The notes below the pieces were generated by a model. The model was not told where the DNA came from and did not search any database. It saw nothing but the letters and a program-made list of their open reading frames with translations. DNA of 28,278 nucleotides from a virus: the IMG/VR virus record IMGVR_UViG_3300021509_000046, positions 1 to 28,278 of that record; one strand, 5' to 3'. Within the stretch, counting starts at the first letter, position 1. The number at the start of each line of letters is the position of its first letter. Positions 6,677 to 28,278 of this stretch are shown here, in pieces. The position numbers and the translations under genes were made by a program.

Positions 6677-7865
6677 GATAACATTTTTGGGTTCCAAAGG
6701 TATGATCGAGGAAAGTTCCCCTCACCACAAATTGAGAACAGGTATTGTGGTTGAAACTCGTAGAGCTCGTTTTCAGGTTGATTGTGGTGAAGAGGAGTTC
6801 TTTGATAACCTTAGGGACGTGGATTTTTTGTATGTAAGTCATTGTTATGATGAGAAGACTGAAGTCTTTACTAATCATGGATGGAAGAGGTTTGCCGAGT
6901 TAAGTAGTTCGGATTGTGTCGCGACGTTGGATGAGAACGACCAGTTAGTTTTCGAGAAGCCCGTAGATTATATTGAACAAGATTACACTGGGTTGATGTA
7001 TTACTTGAGTACGGATTTTTTGAATATGATGGTGACCCCTAACCATAATTTGTATATTTCGGAGAACTTTGATGATCCTTCTTTTTCTCTTGTTCCCGCT
7101 GCGGAGTGTTTTGGACGCCCTAAGATGTTTACGTGTTCTTTTAAATGTGAACAACACGACGCTTCTTTGATACAAGCAGTTTTTTCTAACAACTATTCCT
7201 CTACTACTGAGTTAGTAGCTTCTTGCGATCAGGAGTCTTGGGTTCCTTACGACGGGAAAGTTTACTGCGTAACTCTGCCTGAGCACACTAGACATGTACT
7301 ATTGACGCGTCGTGAGGGTAAGGTGTGTTTTTCCGGGAACTCACACCCAGACCATGTAAGTGGTTTAAAACACAAGGAAATTCCGACGACACTGGTGTCT
7401 ACGTCGCTCGTTCGGCGCCAATTAGTCCGTAATTGGAAGGTCACTCCTACTCTTTTTTCTTCACTTCCTTTCGAGTACGAAGATGTGTCGCTGAAAGCCG
7501 TTCCTTGTTTTCACTCTATTCGGTGTCCTATGTGGGGTGTTGTAATAAACAACGAACTGGGTATCTTTACAGATGTAATACGACCACGTGCTGGTTGGAA
7601 GGTTCTCAAGGGACTCCGGGTTTACGTCGGAGATGGTTCTGCGATCAACCATCCTATAATCCGTGTTAAAGAAAAGGGCGGAGAACCGTTTGGACATACT
7701 TGTATGAAATCTCAACTTCGTTACGCATCTCAATTGAACTGGCAAACAGTTGTTTTTACTCATCTCGGCCGTCAGCCTGTTTTGAAGGGCGACGAGAAAG
7801 TGAAGGAAATACTTGGTGTGGAGGATTTAATTATTGCGAAAGATGGACTTACAATCGAAGTTTGA
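6666..7865 (+). CDS. Metallo-beta-lactamase-fold hydrolase containing a mini-intein
   Basis: After removal of the intein (6843-7340) the host protein is about 233 residues. Its first strands (KITFLGSKGMIEESSPHHKLR and FQVDCG) lead to the spliced metal motif SHSHPDH (HxHxDH). Later elements are CFHS, IFTDVIRP, a GDGSAINHPIIR segment, GHTCMKSQL and VVFTHLG, all typical of a phage- and thermophile-associated MBL family. MBL enzymes of this sort hydrolyse phosphodiesters or other esters with two metal ions; the substrate here is unknown. The GTG at 6666 is chosen because AAAGGGGGT (6648-6656) is 9 bases upstream; further 5' codons in frame lie inside the SpeD-like gene. It overlaps that gene by 11 bases. 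Without splicing the active site cannot form, because the motif is cut between the first His and Ser. Confidence 0.88.
   Translation: MKYKITFLGSKGMIEESSPHHKLRTGIVVETRRARFQVDCGEEEFFDNLRDVDFLYVSHCYDEKTEVFTNHGWKRFAELSSSDCVATLDENDQLVFEKPVDYIEQDYTGLMYYLSTDFLNMMVTPNHNLYISENFDDPSFSLVPAAECFGRPKMFTCSFKCEQHDASLIQAVFSNNYSSTTELVASCDQESWVPYDGKVYCVTLPEHTRHVLLTRREGKVCFSGNSHPDHVSGLKHKEIPTTLVSTSLVRRQLVRNWKVTPTLFSSLPFEYEDVSLKAVPCFHSIRCPMWGVVINNELGIFTDVIRPRAGWKVLKGLRVYVGDGSAINHPIIRVKEKGGEPFGHTCMKSQLRYASQLNWQTVVFTHLGRQPVLKGDEKVKEILGVEDLIIAKDGLTIEV
6843..7340 (+). other. Mini-intein in MBL hydrolase (166 residues)
   Basis: The insert starts with Cys1 (CYDEKTEVFTNHGWKRFAEL, block A) and ends KVCFSGN, followed by Ser as the +1 residue. 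Block B is MMVTPNHNLYI with the TxxH motif, and blocks F/G are YDGKVYCVTL...HVLLT...SGN. No LAGLIDADG or other homing endonuclease is present. The penultimate residue is Gly instead of the usual His, so Asn cyclisation must work without that His. The insertion point is exactly within HxHxDH: N-extein ends VSH, C-extein begins SHPDH. The intein is clearly related to the one in the portal gene. Confidence 0.92.
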
Positions 7866-8073
7866 GTCTGAGATACCAAAGTACAAGCACCGAGCGCGGA
7901 AGCGCAGAATTCCCATCTACTACCGACTTAGAAAGGAGCACCAAAGTAGAGTACCGTGGTTCCGTGAGTGGACTGTTTGGAAGAGGTATGTTTCCTTGAA
8001 GGATGCCAAGAAAGCTATTAGGGTCTTGAACGCTAAGGATAAGTGGTTTGAATATAGTTTAGATCCTTATTAA
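7834..8073 (+). CDS. Small basic hypothetical protein
   Basis: A 79-residue, strongly basic protein rich in Arg, Lys, Trp and Tyr (KHRARKRRIPIYYRLRK, then VPWFREWTVWKRY and DAKKAIRVLNAKDKWFEY). It resembles small nucleic-acid-binding or virion-associated phage proteins only in composition; no family is recognised. I keep the TTG at 7834 because GGAGG (7820-7824) is 9 bases upstream. An ATG at 7843 is in frame but has only a weak site. It overlaps the end of the MBL gene by 32 bases and precedes the zincin gene by 10 bases, so it belongs to the same transcript. Confidence 0.6.
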   Translation: MRKMDLQSKFESEIPKYKHRARKRRIPIYYRLRKEHQSRVPWFREWTVWKRYVSLKDAKKAIRVLNAKDKWFEYSLDPY

Positions 8074-11383: not shown

Positions 11384-12277
11384 ATGAAGGTCCTGATCTT
11401 GGACGATGAGGCGCCAGTGAGGGACTTTTTTAAGTCTTTCCTCGAGAGTAGTTTTGATAATTGCGAGTGTTTTACTTGTGGTTCGGTTCAGGAGTTTAAA
11501 AAGTTGAACACTGAAATCAACCCTGATTTCTATATCCTCGATGTTGTCTTACTTAACGGACAGGTGTTTTCAGCAGTTGATCAGTTCGATCCGTCGCGTG
11601 CGATACTTATAACAGGTTATGACTCAAACAGAGTTCGTAAGGTTGCTCAGATGTACGGGTTCCATGGGGTACTTCCTAAGCCAGTGAATGGAGACGTGTT
11701 GAAAAGTATGTTGGATTCCTTGATTTTGAGAGCAGGTTCCCAGTCACGATCTAGAGTCCAGAGTTTAATGTCCGTTTTTCCTCGGTTGTTTGGCACTCTT
11801 GCGAAGAGTTTGGTTAACGGGCAAAAAGTTCAAGATTGTGTCGAAATAGTCGGCAAAGCCCTCGATGCGACAGTGATCGTCTCCCCGTTCGAGCAAGATG
11901 GCACGATAAGTTTCCCTTTATTTGCGTACTTTAAAGAGGGCGAACCCGAGACACCTCGACGACTTAAGTTACCTCAGAGCTGGCTCGATCAATTGCTGGA
12001 TGGCGAACTTGTCACTCACTTCGGACAAGAGCTCAGCGAGTTAGGTACTGCCGTTAGAAGAGCCTTAGCACTTCCTATTAAAGGTGAAGGTATAGGTCAA
12101 TGGGGCTTTTTCTTAACGTTTGATGGTAAGGCTACTCCTTATACGCAGGAGGAGATTACGTTTGTAAGGTGTGTTGTAGATATACTCGCGCTCGCGTTAC
12201 TCCGACTACGTCATAATACTACTCTCGAGACTGTACTTCGTAACGCCATTACAAAAAGTAAGTGCCTTTTGAAGTGA
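11384..12277 (+). CDS. Response regulator: REC plus GAF-like domain
   Basis: The N-terminal 115 residues are a complete receiver domain: acidic pair Asp7-Asp8 (LILDDE), phosphoacceptor Asp53 (YILDVVLLNGQ), Thr77 (ILITGY) and Lys99 (LPKPV). All canonical residues are present, so it should accept phosphate. After a basic, Ser-rich linker, residues about 130-285 fit a GAF fold (FVNG...VEIVGKALDATVIVSPF, then RRALALPIKGEGIGQWGFFLTF, then YTQEEITFVRCVVDILALAL). It has no DNA-binding or EAL/GGDEF output. The tail is a short helix. It could intercept host phosphorelays or sense a ligand. No full kinase is in the window; a DHp-like protein is at 4047-4307. The ATG at 11384 follows TAGGAGGGA. It ends by overlapping the next gene. 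Confidence 0.85.
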   Translation: MKVLILDDEAPVRDFFKSFLESSFDNCECFTCGSVQEFKKLNTEINPDFYILDVVLLNGQVFSAVDQFDPSRAILITGYDSNRVRKVAQMYGFHGVLPKPVNGDVLKSMLDSLILRAGSQSRSRVQSLMSVFPRLFGTLAKSLVNGQKVQDCVEIVGKALDATVIVSPFEQDGTISFPLFAYFKEGEPETPRRLKLPQSWLDQLLDGELVTHFGQELSELGTAVRRALALPIKGEGIGQWGFFLTFDGKATPYTQEEITFVRCVVDILALALLRLRHNTTLETVLRNAITKSKCLLK

Positions 12278-12561
12278 CAGTGGACTTGAGGAATCTTTCT
12301 ACAGTCGAAGAATTGTTAGTTGAATTGGTGCGCGGAAATACGTCTGCTATAGAGAAGTTAGTTGAGCGCGTAACAGTGGCTGAGCGTAAAGTGGAAAATC
12401 TATGCGAGAATCAGGCTTCTGTAGTGTCGAGCGTGAATGAAGTTAAACTCCGAGTAGACGATATTTGGCGTATCTTGCGAAGTTTGTTCATTAAGGTCAT
12501 CCTAGTTTGTGGTTCTGTTTGTGCAATTAGTTTCGTGTTAGGGTACCTTCTGAAAGGATGA
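12262..12561 (+). CDS. Coiled-coil single-pass membrane protein, XhlA-like
   Basis: A 99-residue protein with a predicted coiled coil (about residues 30-70, heptad-like AIEKLVERVTVAERKVENL and SVNEVKLRVDDIWRIL) followed by one membrane helix near the C-terminus (KVILVCGSVCAISFVLGYLL). This layout resembles XhlA/hemolysin-type proteins that help holins. No endolysin lies beside it, so a lysis role is only a guess; a membrane partner of the upstream regulator is also possible. The start is uncertain. GTG at 12262 overlaps the regulator's end and has no clear ribosome site; GTG at 12274 (sharing GTGA with the stop) is the main alternative. Coupled translation is likely either way. It converges on the minus-strand gene, with 4 bases between the stops. 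Confidence 0.6.
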   Translation: MPFEVTVDLRNLSTVEELLVELVRGNTSAIEKLVERVTVAERKVENLCENQASVVSSVNEVKLRVDDIWRILRSLFIKVILVCGSVCAISFVLGYLLKG

Positions 12562-12565
12562 GATT

Positions 12566-13357
12566 TTACATCTCCGTGACCTTGAAGGGAACCTTCCGTA
12601 GTGTTAGATCGTACACCGGAATACAGTTTTGGTGTACCCCTCCTTTTAGTGCTTTAATTTCTGGCCTTTCTTCTACTGGGAACATTCTCTGAAGCCTGAT
12701 GTAAAGAGGCACAAAGTAGTAGATTGGGATCTTGGGTATTAGGAAGAGATGGTACGCAGGTGCGTAGTGAACGAAGTTTTTGATAAGCGTCTGTTTTTCA
12801 GGCAAATCGTTAACTATTTTGTGCAGATCGATGGAAATTGGCTTGGTGTAGTTTTTGGGATACATAGGTGCGTACTTCCTACTTAAGACTGGTGGAGTGA
12901 GCTCTAAGTTATAAACGGGTGCAAACGTTGAAAAGGGCGTCCCATAGTATGCATTCGACCAGTGTGTATATTCGGGTAAAAATTTCTCGAGAGCTTGTTT
13001 AGTTACTCTGGCAATAGGGTCTTCTTCGATCTTGAGTGGAGTAAAGATCATAAAGTCGAGGTCGTGAGGTGTTCCGTAAAAGACTGACCCTGTTACAATG
13101 ACGTAAGGGTTTTTGATTTGGAAAGGCAATATTCTATTCAAACTTCTCTTCACTCTATGAGCGTTTACCCCTCTTTTACGTAACTCTTTGACAATCAAAC
13201 TGTCGAGTTTTATAAGTTGTGATAGAGTTAGCCCTCCGACCTTACCCTCCTTTTTTCGGGCCTTTTTAATCAACGCTATTACGATTGAGTGCTTAAAAAG
13301 TAAGTCTTTAGTGGAGATTTTCGATAAATCGGCCCCTAAAAGTTGCGCTACTTTCAT
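12566..13357 (-). CDS. Nucleotidyltransferase-like protein (GS...DxD)
   Basis: The 263-residue protein contains VIVTGSVFYGTPHDLDFMIF, the GS-x7-DxD active-site pattern of the polymerase-beta-like nucleotidyltransferase fold (Gly90-Ser91, Asp99, Asp101). The later PISIDLHKIV could provide the third Asp. Such enzymes add nucleotides to proteins, RNA or antibiotics; the target here is unknown, and the fold is a weak match outside the motif. The start is the ATG at 13357, because on the minus strand AAGGAG is 5 bases upstream. An in-frame ATG at 13474 would run into the portal gene and is less likely. It is one of two minus-strand genes, divergent from the morphogenesis genes, which would fit an accessory gene under separate control. 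Confidence 0.65.
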   Translation of the reverse strand: MKVAQLLGADLSKISTKDLLFKHSIVIALIKKARKKEGKVGGLTLSQLIKLDSLIVKELRKRGVNAHRVKRSLNRILPFQIKNPYVIVTGSVFYGTPHDLDFMIFTPLKIEEDPIARVTKQALEKFLPEYTHWSNAYYGTPFSTFAPVYNLELTPPVLSRKYAPMYPKNYTKPISIDLHKIVNDLPEKQTLIKNFVHYAPAYHLFLIPKIPIYYFVPLYIRLQRMFPVEERPEIKALKGGVHQNCIPVYDLTLRKVPFKVTEM

Positions 13358-23740: not shown

Positions 23741-24548
23741 ACAGGTCTACACCGGGAGTGAGGTAAGGTTACAGTTTGATTTCGTTGCGAACGGTCAAAC
23801 TGTTCTTGTCTCACAACCTCAAGCAGATATTTTCGACCCTTTCGGGAATAAGATAGATGTTGTTGATCTTATTTTTTCTGGAGGACATTATTTAACTTAT
23901 TGGACCGCCCCCTCTACTACGCTAGGGTCTTATGTTGCAGTTGGCCGTGGGAAGTATGGTTATGAGGATATTTTGGCTAATTCTCAAGTTAGGTTTGATG
24001 TTGTTTCGTCGTTGTCTACTGAGCTTGTTACGTTAGATGAGGTTAAGGAGTATTTACGTATAGACGACTTTTCTGAAGATTCTTTTCTCAGAGCTCTTCT
24101 TCTAGCTGCTTCGGCTGCTATTTTGGCGTATACACAGTTGAAGCTGGGCTCTGTTAGCGAAACAGAGCGTTGTTTCTTAAAGGGCGCCACCCAGTATGGA
24201 TTGAGATACTTCCCTATTTCTGAGATTACTGAAATTAGGCTTAATGATGTAGATCTAGTCGAAGACTCTGATTATTTCGTAGAGTTGTCCACAGGTCTTA
24301 TAAAGTTCTTTGCACCGCAGACCGGTTTCTTTGAGTGTACTTACACCTTTGGACTTTCCCAAATCCCCTCTCCGGTGAAACTCGCTTGCTTGAAACTCGT
24401 CGCCGCTCTTTACAACCTGCGAGAGTCTGAAGGTTTTTCCAGCCGTCGTTTATTGAGTAACGTGGAAAACTACTTAAGAGACGCGAAGATGGATGTAATG
24501 GCTGAAGTTAGGAGTTTACTCGCTCCGTTTAAACGTAAATTAGCTTAG
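23733..24548 (+). CDS. Head-tail connector (gp6-like) protein
   Basis: Residues about 95-215 match a phage gp6/YqbG-type connector: LVTLDEVKEYLRIDDFSEDSFLRALLLAASAAILAYTQ, the common L.E.K..L.I....D..L..L...A......T pattern. The first 90 residues form a beta-rich extra domain, perhaps an Ig-like or head-facing part, which is longer than in small gp6 proteins. The C-terminus has helices (AALYNLRE; VENYLRDAKM). It joins portal to tail parts. The ATG at 23733 follows GAGGGAG and overlaps the previous gene. Next is a glycosyltransferase, unexpected at this place. Confidence 0.8.
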   Translation: MFKQVYTGSEVRLQFDFVANGQTVLVSQPQADIFDPFGNKIDVVDLIFSGGHYLTYWTAPSTTLGSYVAVGRGKYGYEDILANSQVRFDVVSSLSTELVTLDEVKEYLRIDDFSEDSFLRALLLAASAAILAYTQLKLGSVSETERCFLKGATQYGLRYFPISEITEIRLNDVDLVEDSDYFVELSTGLIKFFAPQTGFFECTYTFGLSQIPSPVKLACLKLVAALYNLRESEGFSSRRLLSNVENYLRDAKMDVMAEVRSLLAPFKRKLA

Positions 24549-24565
24549 TTGCAAGGAGGGTTATT

Positions 24566-26458
24566 ATGATTACTGCTGTAACGTTTACGTCGGAAGATGT
24601 AGTCTCGTTTTTGAACACTGTACTACCTTTTCACATTGAAGGCATTCCTTTGGTTATAGTTGGACAAGACCAACGAGACCTTACTAAAGTCTTGAACTGC
24701 CGTACTTATGAGGGCGGGAAGACTTTTGGTAGAAAGTTGCTAGCTGGGCTAGAGAAGGTTGAAACAGAGTACTTTGTGTTCGTTCATCCGAAGGTGGTCC
24801 TTCCTAATTTGGATTTCCTTGGTGAAGCTTTGAAAGTTCTTTCCTCTCCTGAAGTTGGTTTCGTAGTTCCTGGGCTTCCTAAAGGTGCAGGACCACAGAG
24901 TTATAAGAGGAAAGATAAAGGAGCATTAGCTCGGATTGCTCCTTGGTGTTTTGCGTTTAGAACAAAAGAGGCTATTTCTCTGTTTGAGAAGGCCTCAAAG
25001 AAATTTCAAGATGAGCGCATTGTTCAACTCGTGTGTTACGAACTGATGAAACAAGGTCGTTTTAGTTATGTGTTCCCAATGTACACCTTGGACATGGAGG
25101 AAGACCTTAGTGATCAGAAGCTCGACTCGAGGTTTAGGACCGGTTCGTTGGAACCTGTGTTGATTTATCAATATCGCCAATCACAGGATGTACCCCCTGT
25201 CGCGAAATCCTTGTTCAAGGATATCATTGTTTGCACTCCACTAGACGTTCCTGACATAAGTCAGGGAAAGTTGATTTTTGTTCTAAGAGAGGGCGAGGAT
25301 TTTGCCGATATTTTTACTCCTGAACAGCTACAAAGGATGTGCGACAATCCTGACCCGTTTGTTTTCGCGTATCAGTTTCCTGTACTGCGGACCTGGTCAG
25401 GGAACCGGTACTTGAAAGATCAAGTTACTTGGGAAATCAGAGCTTTTGCTTCTTTTGAGAAGATTGCCCCACGTATTTTGGTTAATCCTTACTATGGACA
25501 ACAACTTCCTTATGAAGGGTTACGCCCAGTTAATGTGCCCATTATTAAGAAGGTCAGCGACCTGCCTGACAATTGCTCCATTGCGAGACTACGTACTCCT
25601 ACCTTAACCATTGCAACGATTATGAAGGATGAAATGAAGAACCTTCCCACGTATTTGGGCACCGCCCTACCTTTTGCTCAGCAAGTGATTTTGGTGGACA
25701 CCGGCTCCCAAGATGAATCTCCAGCTTTTGCAAAACGTTTTGGAGCTGAGGTGTTAGAAGCTAAATTGGATAAAGACTTCTCTAAAGTACGGAATTTGTA
25801 CTTACAGAAGGCGAACGGTACTTGGTTGCTTCAACAGGATTTGGACGAGATTGTTGACTATAAGCAGATTTACGCAGTGATGATGGAAGCACCTGAGAAT
25901 ACAGACGCAGTCCAGCTCCAAGTTCATAATTTGACCCCTCAAGAGGGAACGGTAATTTACCAGGATGCTATTCGTTTGGTTAAGAACCCACAGACTTGGT
26001 ACTACTCAAATCGAGTTCATGAGACGTTTGAACGTTGTGCTACTGAGGAGAATCGTGTTGTATCACGAGTTGATGATGTGGTGATTTACCACTTAGGATT
26101 TCTGTCCCCACGCATGAAGGAGAAACTCTCTTTTTACCGAGAGTTGATCAACATGCAGTTAGAGGAGGAACCGGAGAATCCCTTACCATACTTTAATCTC
26201 GCACTTGACCTGTTGAACGAATATGAGGAACACCCTGAGAATCTTGACGTAGCACTTAAGCTTCTCCTTCAAGCTACTTCTCTCCACCCAAGCTTTGCTC
26301 TTGCACAGTACGAAGTTTCGAGAGTATACTGTCAAAAAGCACTCGAGGCAATTGAGAGGACCCTTGAAGTTGTACCGCCTCACCATCCAATGGTAAATGC
26401 TATTAAGAAGGTTTATGGACCCTTGAAAGAGTATACTAAAAGGTATATTGTGAAATGA
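24566..26458 (+). CDS. Two-domain SunS-like GT2 glycosyltransferase with TPR-like C-terminus
   Basis: A 630-residue protein. The first 340 residues are a degenerate GT-A-like domain (ITAVTFTSEDVV..., FVFVHPKVVLPN, no DXD). The second domain, about 345-540, is canonical: LTIATIMKDEMKNLP, VILVDTGSQDESP, FSKVRNLYLQKANGTWLL then QQDLDEIVD, the SunS/WaaE-like GT2 signature with DLDE as the metal site. The end has TPR-like helices (LPYFNLALDLLNEYEE; LALKLLLQATSLHPSFALAQYEVSRVY). SunS relatives glycosylate peptides, so the target could be a virion protein. It lies inside the head-tail operon, 17 bases after the connector, and overlaps the next gene by 4 bases. ATG at 24566 follows AAGGAGGG. Confidence 0.85.
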   Translation: MITAVTFTSEDVVSFLNTVLPFHIEGIPLVIVGQDQRDLTKVLNCRTYEGGKTFGRKLLAGLEKVETEYFVFVHPKVVLPNLDFLGEALKVLSSPEVGFVVPGLPKGAGPQSYKRKDKGALARIAPWCFAFRTKEAISLFEKASKKFQDERIVQLVCYELMKQGRFSYVFPMYTLDMEEDLSDQKLDSRFRTGSLEPVLIYQYRQSQDVPPVAKSLFKDIIVCTPLDVPDISQGKLIFVLREGEDFADIFTPEQLQRMCDNPDPFVFAYQFPVLRTWSGNRYLKDQVTWEIRAFASFEKIAPRILVNPYYGQQLPYEGLRPVNVPIIKKVSDLPDNCSIARLRTPTLTIATIMKDEMKNLPTYLGTALPFAQQVILVDTGSQDESPAFAKRFGAEVLEAKLDKDFSKVRNLYLQKANGTWLLQQDLDEIVDYKQIYAVMMEAPENTDAVQLQVHNLTPQEGTVIYQDAIRLVKNPQTWYYSNRVHETFERCATEENRVVSRVDDVVIYHLGFLSPRMKEKLSFYRELINMQLEEEPENPLPYFNLALDLLNEYEEHPENLDVALKLLLQATSLHPSFALAQYEVSRVYCQKALEAIERTLEVVPPHHPMVNAIKKVYGPLKEYTKRYIVK

Positions 26459-27036
26459 CCAATCTCGTTGGCTTTCATTACAGGCGACGTATTTACACAG
26501 TTCGTCGGTATACTACTTGCATTGCAACGGAGTTGTCTTGTAAAAAGGGTGTTCCTACCGCCCTGAACATTTCGCAAATACACCCTGAGGCTACGCTGCG
26601 ATTGACTTGGTTGGGAGATACTCCAAGTGTGTTGTGCACGTTAGTTAGTAACTCCGTGACCGAGACTCTCACTTTAACTAAATTCAGCGCTTCCCTTACG
26701 TCAAATAAGTTTCCCGGATTGGAGTACGTGACGTGTTCTCAAGACGGCTCTCTTTCGATTTACACTACCGAAGAGGTTGGTCTTGATGTAGGACAGGTTA
26801 CTGGTGCGGTTTACACTGCTAGGAGAGCTATAGGTACGGATGAGTTCGGCCGTGTTACATTAGTCTCTTCGAGTGTGATGGTGTGTTTACCTGGAGTTGA
26901 AATTCGCGCTGACGACGTGTTGATTGATCAGGAAACGAACGAGACTTTTTCTGTAGTAGAGGCGCAGCAAGCTTTTGATCGTAGAGGCAAATTACATCAT
27001 TGGGAACTTGATGTTGTGCGGATAAGAGAACGATGA
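26455..27036 (+). CDS. Head-closure / head-tail adaptor candidate
   Basis: The 193-residue protein ends in a beta domain: VEIRADDVLIDQETNETFSVVEAQQ then GKLHHWELDVVRIRE. This fits the head-closure (SPP1 gp16-like) motif in which a hydrophilic ..GD.l.d....y.V strand is followed by a final hHwe.d strand. The first half is beta-rich and unrecognised. It sits between the connector/GT and the gp10-like gene, the usual slot for a head-closure protein. ATG at 26455 overlaps the glycosyltransferase stop in ATGA. The position and C-terminus support the call; no catalytic role is expected. Confidence 0.6.
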   Translation: MTNLVGFHYRRRIYTVRRYTTCIATELSCKKGVPTALNISQIHPEATLRLTWLGDTPSVLCTLVSNSVTETLTLTKFSASLTSNKFPGLEYVTCSQDGSLSIYTTEEVGLDVGQVTGAVYTARRAIGTDEFGRVTLVSSSVMVCLPGVEIRADDVLIDQETNETFSVVEAQQAFDRRGKLHHWELDVVRIRER

Positions 27037-27410
27037 GACTGTCGATTCGATTGCCTTCTGTTTCGAAAATCTTCGATGATCTTGAGAAGAGGAAGCAGAA
27101 GTCTGTCGATGTGATATTTGAAGAAATTGTTCGACTTGTTAGTGGTGAACCTCTTTCTAATGAAGAACTGCGCAGACGAGGACATCCTTACTCAAGACGA
27201 CGGCCTACTAACTTGTCTCCTTTAGTTCATATTCGCACTGGGCGTTTGAAGACTTCAATTCGTAAGAAACGCGACGGAATTGCTTTTGACACTAGCAAAG
27301 CACCTCATTTGAAATATGTGGTTGAGGGTACAAGACGGATGATCCCCCGAGACTTCGTCGCAGCTGCTCTTCGGAAGGCTTCAGATCGACTGAAGGAGAT
27401 TTGGGAGTAG
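27033..27410 (+). CDS. HK97 gp10-like head-tail/neck protein
   Basis: The 125-residue protein has the HK97-gp10 (tail completion) layout: an N-terminal helix, then HPYSRRRPTNLSP, VHIRTGRLKTSI, a beta region and KYVVEGTRRMIPRDFVAAAL. The TGRL and EGTR.M.PR elements are diagnostic. It helps join the tail to the head or complete the tail tube. Length is normal for the family. ATG at 27033 overlaps the previous stop (ATGA) with a weak ribosome site, so it is probably translationally coupled. It is followed by the tail-terminator candidate after 6 bases. Confidence 0.85.
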   Translation: MRLSIRLPSVSKIFDDLEKRKQKSVDVIFEEIVRLVSGEPLSNEELRRRGHPYSRRRPTNLSPLVHIRTGRLKTSIRKKRDGIAFDTSKAPHLKYVVEGTRRMIPRDFVAAALRKASDRLKEIWE

Positions 27411-27416
27411 AATAGT

Positions 27417-27845
27417 ATGATTTATTTACACGAAGTTCAGTTAGATTTGAGTGGTAAGATCGAATCCATTCTAACAGACTTAGATCAGACTTATAGCTTA
27501 GGTTTGATCAGAGCTCCTGTGATAGTGTCTTCTTTACCAGAGGAACGCGTTACCCCTTCTACCTACTTGAAAATGGAAGAGGTTTCGAGTCAAGAAAAAG
27601 TTTTCTTTCGGTGTACGGGGACATTGCTCGTTGAATTATCTTTTGAAGTAGGCGAAGATTTAGCTTCGAGTTTGATTCGGAAGTTAAGCAATAAGTTGCA
27701 AGATCAGTTGGAACGGAGAAATAATACTATTCACACTTACTATTCAGGTAACGTTAAAAGAGTTACATGGTCTCTTCCTAAGGAAGAGATGATTAGAACG
27801 ATTAAAGTTGAGTTCGAGGTGCAGGGCATTGAGCAACCAGTCTAA
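27417..27845 (+). CDS. Tail terminator candidate
   Basis: The 142-residue protein comes directly after the gp10-like gene, the usual tail-terminator place. It has alternating strands and helices (RAPVIVSSLPEERVTPSTYLKM; FRCTGTLLVELSFEVGEDLASSLIRKLSNKLQ) and a closing strand (EMIRTIKVEFEVQGI) of the right size and layout for SPP1 gp17-like tail terminators. Sequence match is general, so the call is mainly contextual. It has no membrane segment. The ATG at 27417 is 10 bases after GGGAG. Its end overlaps the zinc-ribbon gene, which starts with a TTG inside it. Confidence 0.55.
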   Translation: MIYLHEVQLDLSGKIESILTDLDQTYSLGLIRAPVIVSSLPEERVTPSTYLKMEEVSSQEKVFFRCTGTLLVELSFEVGEDLASSLIRKLSNKLQDQLERRNNTIHTYYSGNVKRVTWSLPKEEMIRTIKVEFEVQGIEQPV

Positions 27846-28065
27846 TGTTTGGAAATGTTCAAGTTGTGGGGCTGTTTTAGGTTACCTAGATGGTACAGAC
27901 ATCTTGCGTATTAAGTATAAGGACCTATACTTTTACGTGAACGTTATAAGAGGAGCTTCGTTGATAAAATGCTTGTGTCGTAAATGCGGTAAAGTTAATG
28001 AAGTTATGGCGAAGGCGATGAAGATGAGCGAACCTGCTGTGATCGAATTGGAGAAGTACTTGTAG
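27829..28065 (+). CDS. Com-like double-CxxC zinc-ribbon protein
   Basis: A 78-residue protein with two Cys pairs: WKCSSCGAVLG near the N-terminus and CLCRKCGKVNE near residue 55, forming a zinc ribbon like Mu Com (W.C..CG..L....R..iKC.rC...N). Com of phage Mu activates translation of a downstream modification gene by binding mRNA. Here a similar RNA role is conceivable but not shown. The start is taken as TTG at 27829 because GAGGT (27816-27820) is 8 bases upstream. A longer TTG start at 27808 would add 7 residues and is less supported. It overlaps the preceding gene by 17 bases. The intron-bearing gene follows 51 bases after it. Confidence 0.65.
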   Translation: MSNQSNVWKCSSCGAVLGYLDGTDILRIKYKDLYFYVNVIRGASLIKCLCRKCGKVNEVMAKAMKMSEPAVIELEKYL

Positions 28066-28116
28066 TGTGTTGGAGTTGTTGGGTACATACTTAACTTGAG
28101 GAGGTGAGAATTGTAA

Positions 28117-28148
28117 ATGAATACGCCAACTTATAACACCAAGCGCCT
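28117..28148 (+). CDS. 5' exon of an intron-interrupted gene, probably a tail protein
   Basis: ATG at 28117 lies 11 bases after AGGAGGT (28099-28105). The frame reads MNTPTYNTKR then CT, the first two bases of a Leu codon, and stops at 28148 at the predicted 5' splice site. Reading on into the intron gives a TAG at 28153-28155, so the exon needs splicing. By position, just after tail-terminator and Com-like genes, a major tail tube protein is the best guess. The 3' exon lies outside the window, so identity cannot be settled. Confidence 0.65.
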
Positions 28149-28278
28149 GAATTAGCTCGGGCCCCTAACTAGTAATAGTTAGGTGAAAAGCTCGCTTGGT
28201 CAGGGAAGCCTAAGTCCAGTTTTGGATATGGTAACCCTGAGGGGTTAGATTCGAAAGAATCGAAGCCCTGCAGAGACT
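28149..28278 (+). ncRNA. Group I intron, 5' part (IC3-like core, truncated by window)
   Basis: P1 is GCCUGA (28145-28150) paired with UCGGGC (28157-28162), with the U-G wobble at 28148/28159 marking the 5' splice site after 28148. P2 is CCTAACTA (28164-28171) with TAGTTAGG (28176-28183) and a GUAA loop. GGGAAGCCTAAGTCC (28203-28217) is the J3/4-P4-J4/5 region. P4 pairs 28208-28210 with 28230-28232, and P5 pairs 28214-28217 with 28224-28227. P6 is GGG/CCC, capped by a GATTC-GAAA-GAATC hairpin (28248-28261). TGCAGAGACT at 28269-28278 is J6/7 plus the P7 5' strand. The string closely follows the cyanobacterial tRNA-Leu and Azoarcus introns. P3', P8, P7' and the 3' splice site are beyond the edge. 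Confidence 0.92.

Follow-up and report, generated by a model that had tools for sequence, protein, structure and literature searches.

A probable mobile group I intron at the start of a phage tail tube gene, 13 nucleotides from a second intron site

Group I introns of subgroup IA have P7.1/P7.2 located between P7 and P3′, and in those of subgroup IC3 P3′ comes directly after the 5′ strand of P7. According to a passage of PMC11878797, which also mentions orf142 of Twort for exon skipping, the majority of split genes in phages have roles in DNA and nucleotide metabolism. Twort orf142 is a phage tail tube gene with three group I introns (I1–I3), the second and third of which belong to subgroup IA2, and its exon skipping is documented in passages of PMC10136302 and PMC11878797. 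These introns have no annotated ORF, and the first lies about 360 nt past the gene start, far into the gene. Phage group I introns with HNH nicking endonucleases are those of I-PfoP3I and I-HmuI (IA2 for Pf-WMP3), which lie in DNA polymerase genes and not, as here, in a tail gene (as given in a passage of PMC3428280).

The DNA analyzed here (the window, the whole stretch of 28,278 nt of IMG/VR record IMGVR_UViG_3300021509_000046) ends in what is very probably a mobile group I intron, of which it holds the 5′ half (28149–28278); the insertion follows nucleotide 32 of a gene for a phage tail tube. A strong ribosome-binding site precedes the start codon of the gene (ATG, 28117), and the unspliced frame, MNTPTYNTKRLN followed by a stop, ends after 12 codons at a TAG (28153–28155) in the loop of P1, as the preliminary description had it. 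Homologues without the intron read straight through (KRLSFGPGVLYIG). They include L018 (MNTPTYTTKRLSFGPGVLYIGAAGATPMTDIG...) and L019, which read MN.P.YTTKRLSFGPGVLY without interruption, L020 (the same sequence in the stretch read) and the more distant L039–L042. The earlier claim that the 5′ exon ends in phase 2 with CT was retained, with the splice site after CGCCT.

Folding of positions 28117–28278 gave a minimum free energy (MFE) of −58.9 kcal/mol, compared with −40.4 ± 4.2 kcal/mol in shuffled sequences (z −4.41; none of 200 shuffles was that low). P1, P2, P4, P5, P6 and the 5′ strand of P7 could be placed (Table 1), bearing out the statement that the core can be folded by hand. Hallmarks of group I introns were present in the window, namely a P1 in which the exon pairs with the internal guide sequence (28154–28162) as GCCU/GGGC and a U28148·G28159 wobble marks the 5′ splice site, and a P4–P6 domain (P4 strands 28201–28205/28235–28239) with the P7 5′ strand and its guanosine site. 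The window sequence ends at 28278, and its P3′, P7′, 3′ splice site and 3′ exon would lie beyond.

A search with the Rfam group I intron model RF00028, which had been proposed as a check, gave a partial match to 28139–28278 that was marked as truncated on its 3′ side, with 25.0 bits and, over the 479 bases searched, E = 2.4e-4. The gathering cut-off of this model is 50 bits, and nothing was reported for the window at that threshold; every score for an intron of the window type (window and L006, below) fell below it. Such a sub-threshold match, with half a structure visible, might be expected of a structured leader or a chance fold at a truncated tail gene that holds no intron at all. We consider this extremely improbable, as the homologues without an intron show that the frame should continue, the core was matched both by RF00028 and by a model made from other cores (R1, below), and an HNH gene and a 3′ core are present in L006.

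Exon 1 contains a segment, ACCAAGCG (28138–28145), that is fully complementary to CGCTTGGT (28193–28200), which overlaps the P3 5′ strand, and the same was seen in L006. This complement could be a folding trap or chance; as a functional helix it was rejected, 8 bp being reached in 78 of 2000 shuffles.

Table 1. Coordinates of the split gene and intron parts in the window, and of the 3′ core in L006
Feature	Position	Strand	Basis or remark
Ribosome-binding site GGAGGTGAG and spacer upstream of split gene	28100..28116	+	sequence
5′ exon of tail tube gene, MNTPTYNTKR plus CT (phase 2)	28117..28148	+	continuous homologues L018, L019
Group I intron, 5′ part, ending with the sequence	28149..28278	+	fold, RF00028, R1, identity to L006
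P1, GCCT-GA (hyphen, splice site) with TCGGGC	28145..28162 (28145–28150/28157–28162)	+	sequence, MFE; same helix listed for L006
P2 hairpin, 8 bp	28164..28183 (28164–28171/28176–28183)	+	MFE; same helix listed for L006
P3 5′ strand, CTCGC(TT); partner GACGCGAG at L006 12614–12621	28191..28197	+	sequence, placement next to P8
P4-P5-P5a (CAGGG/CCCTG, GCC/GGT, TCC/GGA)	28200..28240	+	RF00028, MFE, R1, Twort blastn
P6-P6a	28241..28269	+	MFE; GGG/CCC in window vs CC/GG in L027 and L028
P7 5′ strand, GAGACT; partner AGTCC at L006 12686–12690	28273..28278	+	RF00028, R1, L006
L006 P8	12625–12631 with 12670–12676		7–9 bp, two more pairs possible
L006 P7′, ATAGTCC	12684–12690		
L006 P9	12694–12710		

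Viral contigs were scanned for the P4–P5 letters of the window, and one stretch was found, in L006 (IMG/VR 3300033150_002146). A looser pattern gave five stretches (L006, L027, L028, L029 and L030), among which L027 (94.3 bits), L028 (78.3 bits) and L030 (61.2 bits) passed the Rfam cut-off; L029 had no Rfam intron match up to E 0.01. The best named match of the window was intron 1 of the Twort tail tube gene (blastn, 84.6% over 39 bases, 28201–28239, E = 0.05). Model R1 was seeded with six introns, L027, L028, L030 and Twort I1, I2 and I3. It matched the window at 28186–28278 with 28.8 bits, the sole match there up to E 10; its E-value of 6e-6 is rough, like the calibration of R1, and partly circular, because a P4–P5 likeness to the window had brought in four of the seeds (L027, L028 and L030 by pattern, Twort I1 by blastn); this likeness played no part in the choice of Twort I2 and I3. 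With equally rough E-values, R1 gave eight matches up to E 1 in 15 loci, comprising the six seeds, L006 (E = 1.6e-7) and a weak Twort hit (E = 0.15), and neither L001 nor L029 was matched; one of seven whole viral records was matched, that of L006. The fold, the partial RF00028 match and R1 thus support the identification as a group I intron made in the preliminary description.

On a 156-kb viral contig, a tmRNA match (57.1 bits) is overlapped at its 3′ end by the group I intron of L027 (4300–4858, minus strand; 94.3 bits). The intron seems to split a phage-borne tmRNA gene, the T-arm resuming past the intron by eye. On the minus strand of L029, from ~3,290 downwards, an intron of LAGLIDADG type was recognized by eye, with P3, P4 and P7 strands like those of L001.

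The core had been assigned to subgroup IC3, known mostly from bacterial tRNA genes. The P5 motif of the window (CCTAAG...TATGG) recalls the Azoarcus tRNA intron, but it is also present in L027, L028 and intron 1 of the Twort tail tube gene, and in L027 and L028 33 and 31 nt, respectively, lie between P7 and P3′. An HNH ORF occupies the P7.1/P7.2 place in L006. In L006, L027 and L028 alike P3′ does not directly follow the P7 5′ strand, although an ORF could have entered an IC3 intron. Because these inserts and the ORF sit at the place of P7.1/P7.2 and Twort introns 2 and 3 are IA2, a phage IA type appears more likely than IC3 for the window, which stops short of the diagnostic region. An IC3-type intron as in bacterial tRNA genes is very unlikely, the relatives being phage introns with a P7–P3′ insert of 31–33 nt and the Twort tail tube introns.

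L006 carries the same intron. Its positions 12055–12182 matched the intron of the window at 96.1% identity (123 of 128, with 2 gap positions), exon 1 was 93.8% identical (30 of 32), and 28100–28148 was 93.5% identical (43 of 46, with 3 gap positions). The two genes just upstream shared 60.2% and 60.5%, the spacer 61.8%, and longer blastn pieces elsewhere 65.5–73.1%. Because identity jumps from ~60% to 94–96% at the gene start, replacement appears to have taken in the exon along with the intron, as in co-conversion, a mark of homing.

After the P7 5′ strand, L006 has an ORF (12201–12719 including the stop; the GTG start is our choice) with an HNH_3 domain (E = 5.4e-11), whose product is a predicted homing endonuclease. 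An encoded endonuclease, as expected of a homing intron, was seen in L006 only. Relatives of the HNH protein were found at six loci in viral contigs, one being the L006 contig and the other five matching over 44–65 residues only. The 3′ end of the ORF overlaps P3′ (GACGCGAG), P8, P7′ and P9, and the distance from the P7 5′ strand to P3′ is about 430 nt including the ORF; introns with an ORF extending into the core are mentioned in a passage of PMC3984707. A TGAAGAG stretch before P7′ is common to L006 and L027. The 3′ part of L006 folded with z −3.61 (1 of 200 shuffles was that low) and matched RF00028 positions 148–253 with E = 0.023, and a scan of viral contigs for the 3′ core found L006 only. 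Rfam E-value searches of L006 11500–14162 as one stretch and of the whole of L001 6600–8100 gave no intron match, which is the outcome to be expected of truncated or ORF-split cores.

L006 also led to a change in P3. The preliminary description had placed its 5′ strand at GCTTGGTC (28194–28201), with a partner near GAC...AAGC. Because the partner beside P8 in L006 is GACGCGAG, the 5′ strand is better placed as in Table 1. Two other positions for P3′ in L006 were rejected, 12224–12230 (7 bp but away from P8) and 12204–12209 (6 bp, which would leave a long J3/4).

The recognizable 3′ exon of L006 begins ACAATTGAC (12719), and 49 conserved nucleotides of the 3′ exon, which encode the remainder of Leu plus SFGPGVLYIG..TP, are absent from L006. 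When exon 1 of L006 was joined to 17 candidate 3′ starts, three joins were in frame, following A, T and C, and none followed a G, because the 49 nt are missing. Of the downstream parts that had been predicted, P3′ and P7′ are present in L006, along with P8 and P9, but an in-frame 3′ exon fails after any G. The stop TGA of the HNH ORF overlaps the GTG opening the tail frame (GTGA, 12716–12719), and a search for a second tail gene on the 22.8-kb contig of L006 found none. L006 is either a damaged insertion or has a tail protein with a late start, and it is no clean model for what follows in the window phage, neither for the 3′ half of the intron nor for the 3′ exon.

The missing exon, the lack of a join in frame after G, the GTGA overlap and the single tail gene found would also suit a decaying relic, in which the core is still recognizable, the gene is not restored by splicing any longer, and translation of the tail protein starts downstream or is lost, as may be the case in L006. 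This is an unlikely reading, since the window and L006 differ at 5 of 128 intron positions plus 2 gaps with all visible helices kept, and the flaw of L006 is located past the point at which the window ends. We favor a mobile intron, whose 3′ half, beyond the end of the window, would be intact. Nicking close to the site of insertion is known for some HNH endonucleases of introns, in the case of I-HmuI 3 nt downstream of it (stated in a passage of PMC3428280), and for this reason faulty repair after nicking could, speculatively, have removed the exon of L006.

The preliminary description spoke of a probable tail gene, which family matches and gene order refined to a tail tube gene. In an alignment of eight tail proteins (the rows of L001 and L006 being 3′ exons only), all eight matched PHROG 2175, “protein with Ig domain” (best E = 2.5e-12), five matched PHROG 885, major tail protein, weakly (best E = 0.002), and one matched Pfam PF25681, phage tail tube (E = 6e-6). 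A tail assembly chaperone match lies downstream in L001, and head, connector and neck matches lie upstream in the window. These give fair but not structural support for the predicted tail tube function; an AlphaFold model of the tail protein was too poor (mean pLDDT 45.7), and a profile search of PDB chains with the tail family gave no match up to E 1. The tail protein had no tblastn match in phages or in plasmids at E 1e-3, 24500–28278 had no blastn match in phages, and the Twort tail gene did not match the tail family of the window (phage collection, E 1e-3). A single 31-base blastn match of 28100–28278 in plasmids (E = 0.5) was taken as chance.

Two other genes of the window were noted. Positions 24566–26458, flanked by the head-tail adaptor and neck genes, encode a protein of 630 aa that matches a glycosyltransferase family (phrog_13126, E = 1e-14). 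Immediately before the tail tube gene, 27808–28065 encodes an 85-aa protein with two CxxC pairs and weak family matches only; look-alikes were seen by eye in L001, L005, L006, L018 and L019.

Relatives of the gene at 27417 were found at five loci in viral contigs, and identity to the window was 86.6% over 6.7 kb for L001–L004 and 71.4% for L005. In L001, a sister phage (87.8% over 27417–28099), the start of this tail gene is interrupted by 1,189 nt (6746–7934) containing a LAGLIDADG_2 ORF (E = 7.7e-12). By direct reading, this intron ends in a G and has P1 (GGGCCU/GGGCCC) as well as strands of P3 and P7, and Rfam matched its 3′ half weakly (15.6 bits, E = 0.057). With the insertion removed, its exons join in frame, and MNTPTYNTKRLSFGPGVLYIGSAGQTPTIDIG... 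runs unbroken to the gene stop. The L001 intron differs from that of the window in its insertion site (the splice site is 13 nt downstream), its internal guide and its endonuclease, LAGLIDADG_2 vs the HNH seen in L006. Carriers of the intron with the LAGLIDADG ORF were L001, L010 and L031, and L001 equals L031 (a MAG contig) over 6,501 bases.

Direct reading of exon 1 showed 6 of 32 positions differing between the window and L001, with MNTPTYNTKR and Leu 11 unchanged. The guide AGCUC of the window (28154–28158) could form a P10 with GAGUU, which in the exon of L001 comes right after the equivalent position (direct reading), and the window intron would therefore fit an uninterrupted site of L001 type. 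A start of the window intron at the L001 site GGGCC was rejected, as no P1 with U·G was seen there by eye.

The last bases of the L004 contig are ...AACACCAA, and its final 91 bases exactly overlap the beginning of the L010 contig, from the same sample (3300016457); the base after the overlap is A in L010 (L001 type) vs G in the window type. The L005 contig also ends near the tail gene start. Because this assembly fork falls exactly where the two exon versions part, there are hints that several versions of the site coexist in these samples, one branch of which is seen. An assembly cause for the fork is possible, given the large inverted end repeats of the L010 contig. In IMGVR_UViG_3300016457_000282 (150,430 bases), the ends L047 and L048 are identical inverted repeats that begin at the tail gene fork and extend over at least 20 kb, and no perfect palindrome was found at the middle; these repeats are probably an assembly artefact.

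We propose that the transcribed intron would fold into a group I core, that guanosine bound at P7 would attack after U28148, and that joining of the exons would restore codon 11 (CT plus G, Leu), the 3′ exon of the window gene being expected to begin GAGTTTCGGGCCTGG or similar. The HNH endonuclease would nick or cut intronless tail genes, and repair of these would copy in the intron plus the neighboring exon. Because the sister phage has a different intron 13 bases further on, mobile introns appear to use the beginning of the tail gene as a landing site. It is conceivable, though doubtful, that the HNH and LAGLIDADG introns 13 nt apart exclude each other, each disrupting by its insertion the target of the other endonuclease, immunizing its carrier and attacking the rival genome, with L006 as a casualty. 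The insertion in L006 would then have lost the 49-nt exon, and what is left of the tail gene would now form a coupled pair with the HNH gene.

The intron is of a known kind; its host gene and neighborhood are unusual. It splits a second tail tube gene, with no detectable kinship to that of Twort and with two introns 13 nt apart, a hint that introns can also settle in structural genes whose N-terminal coding block is conserved. Interference of an intron endonuclease with a co-infecting phage is reported in PMC11620839, and sister phages with alternative introns would offer a natural test of this idea.
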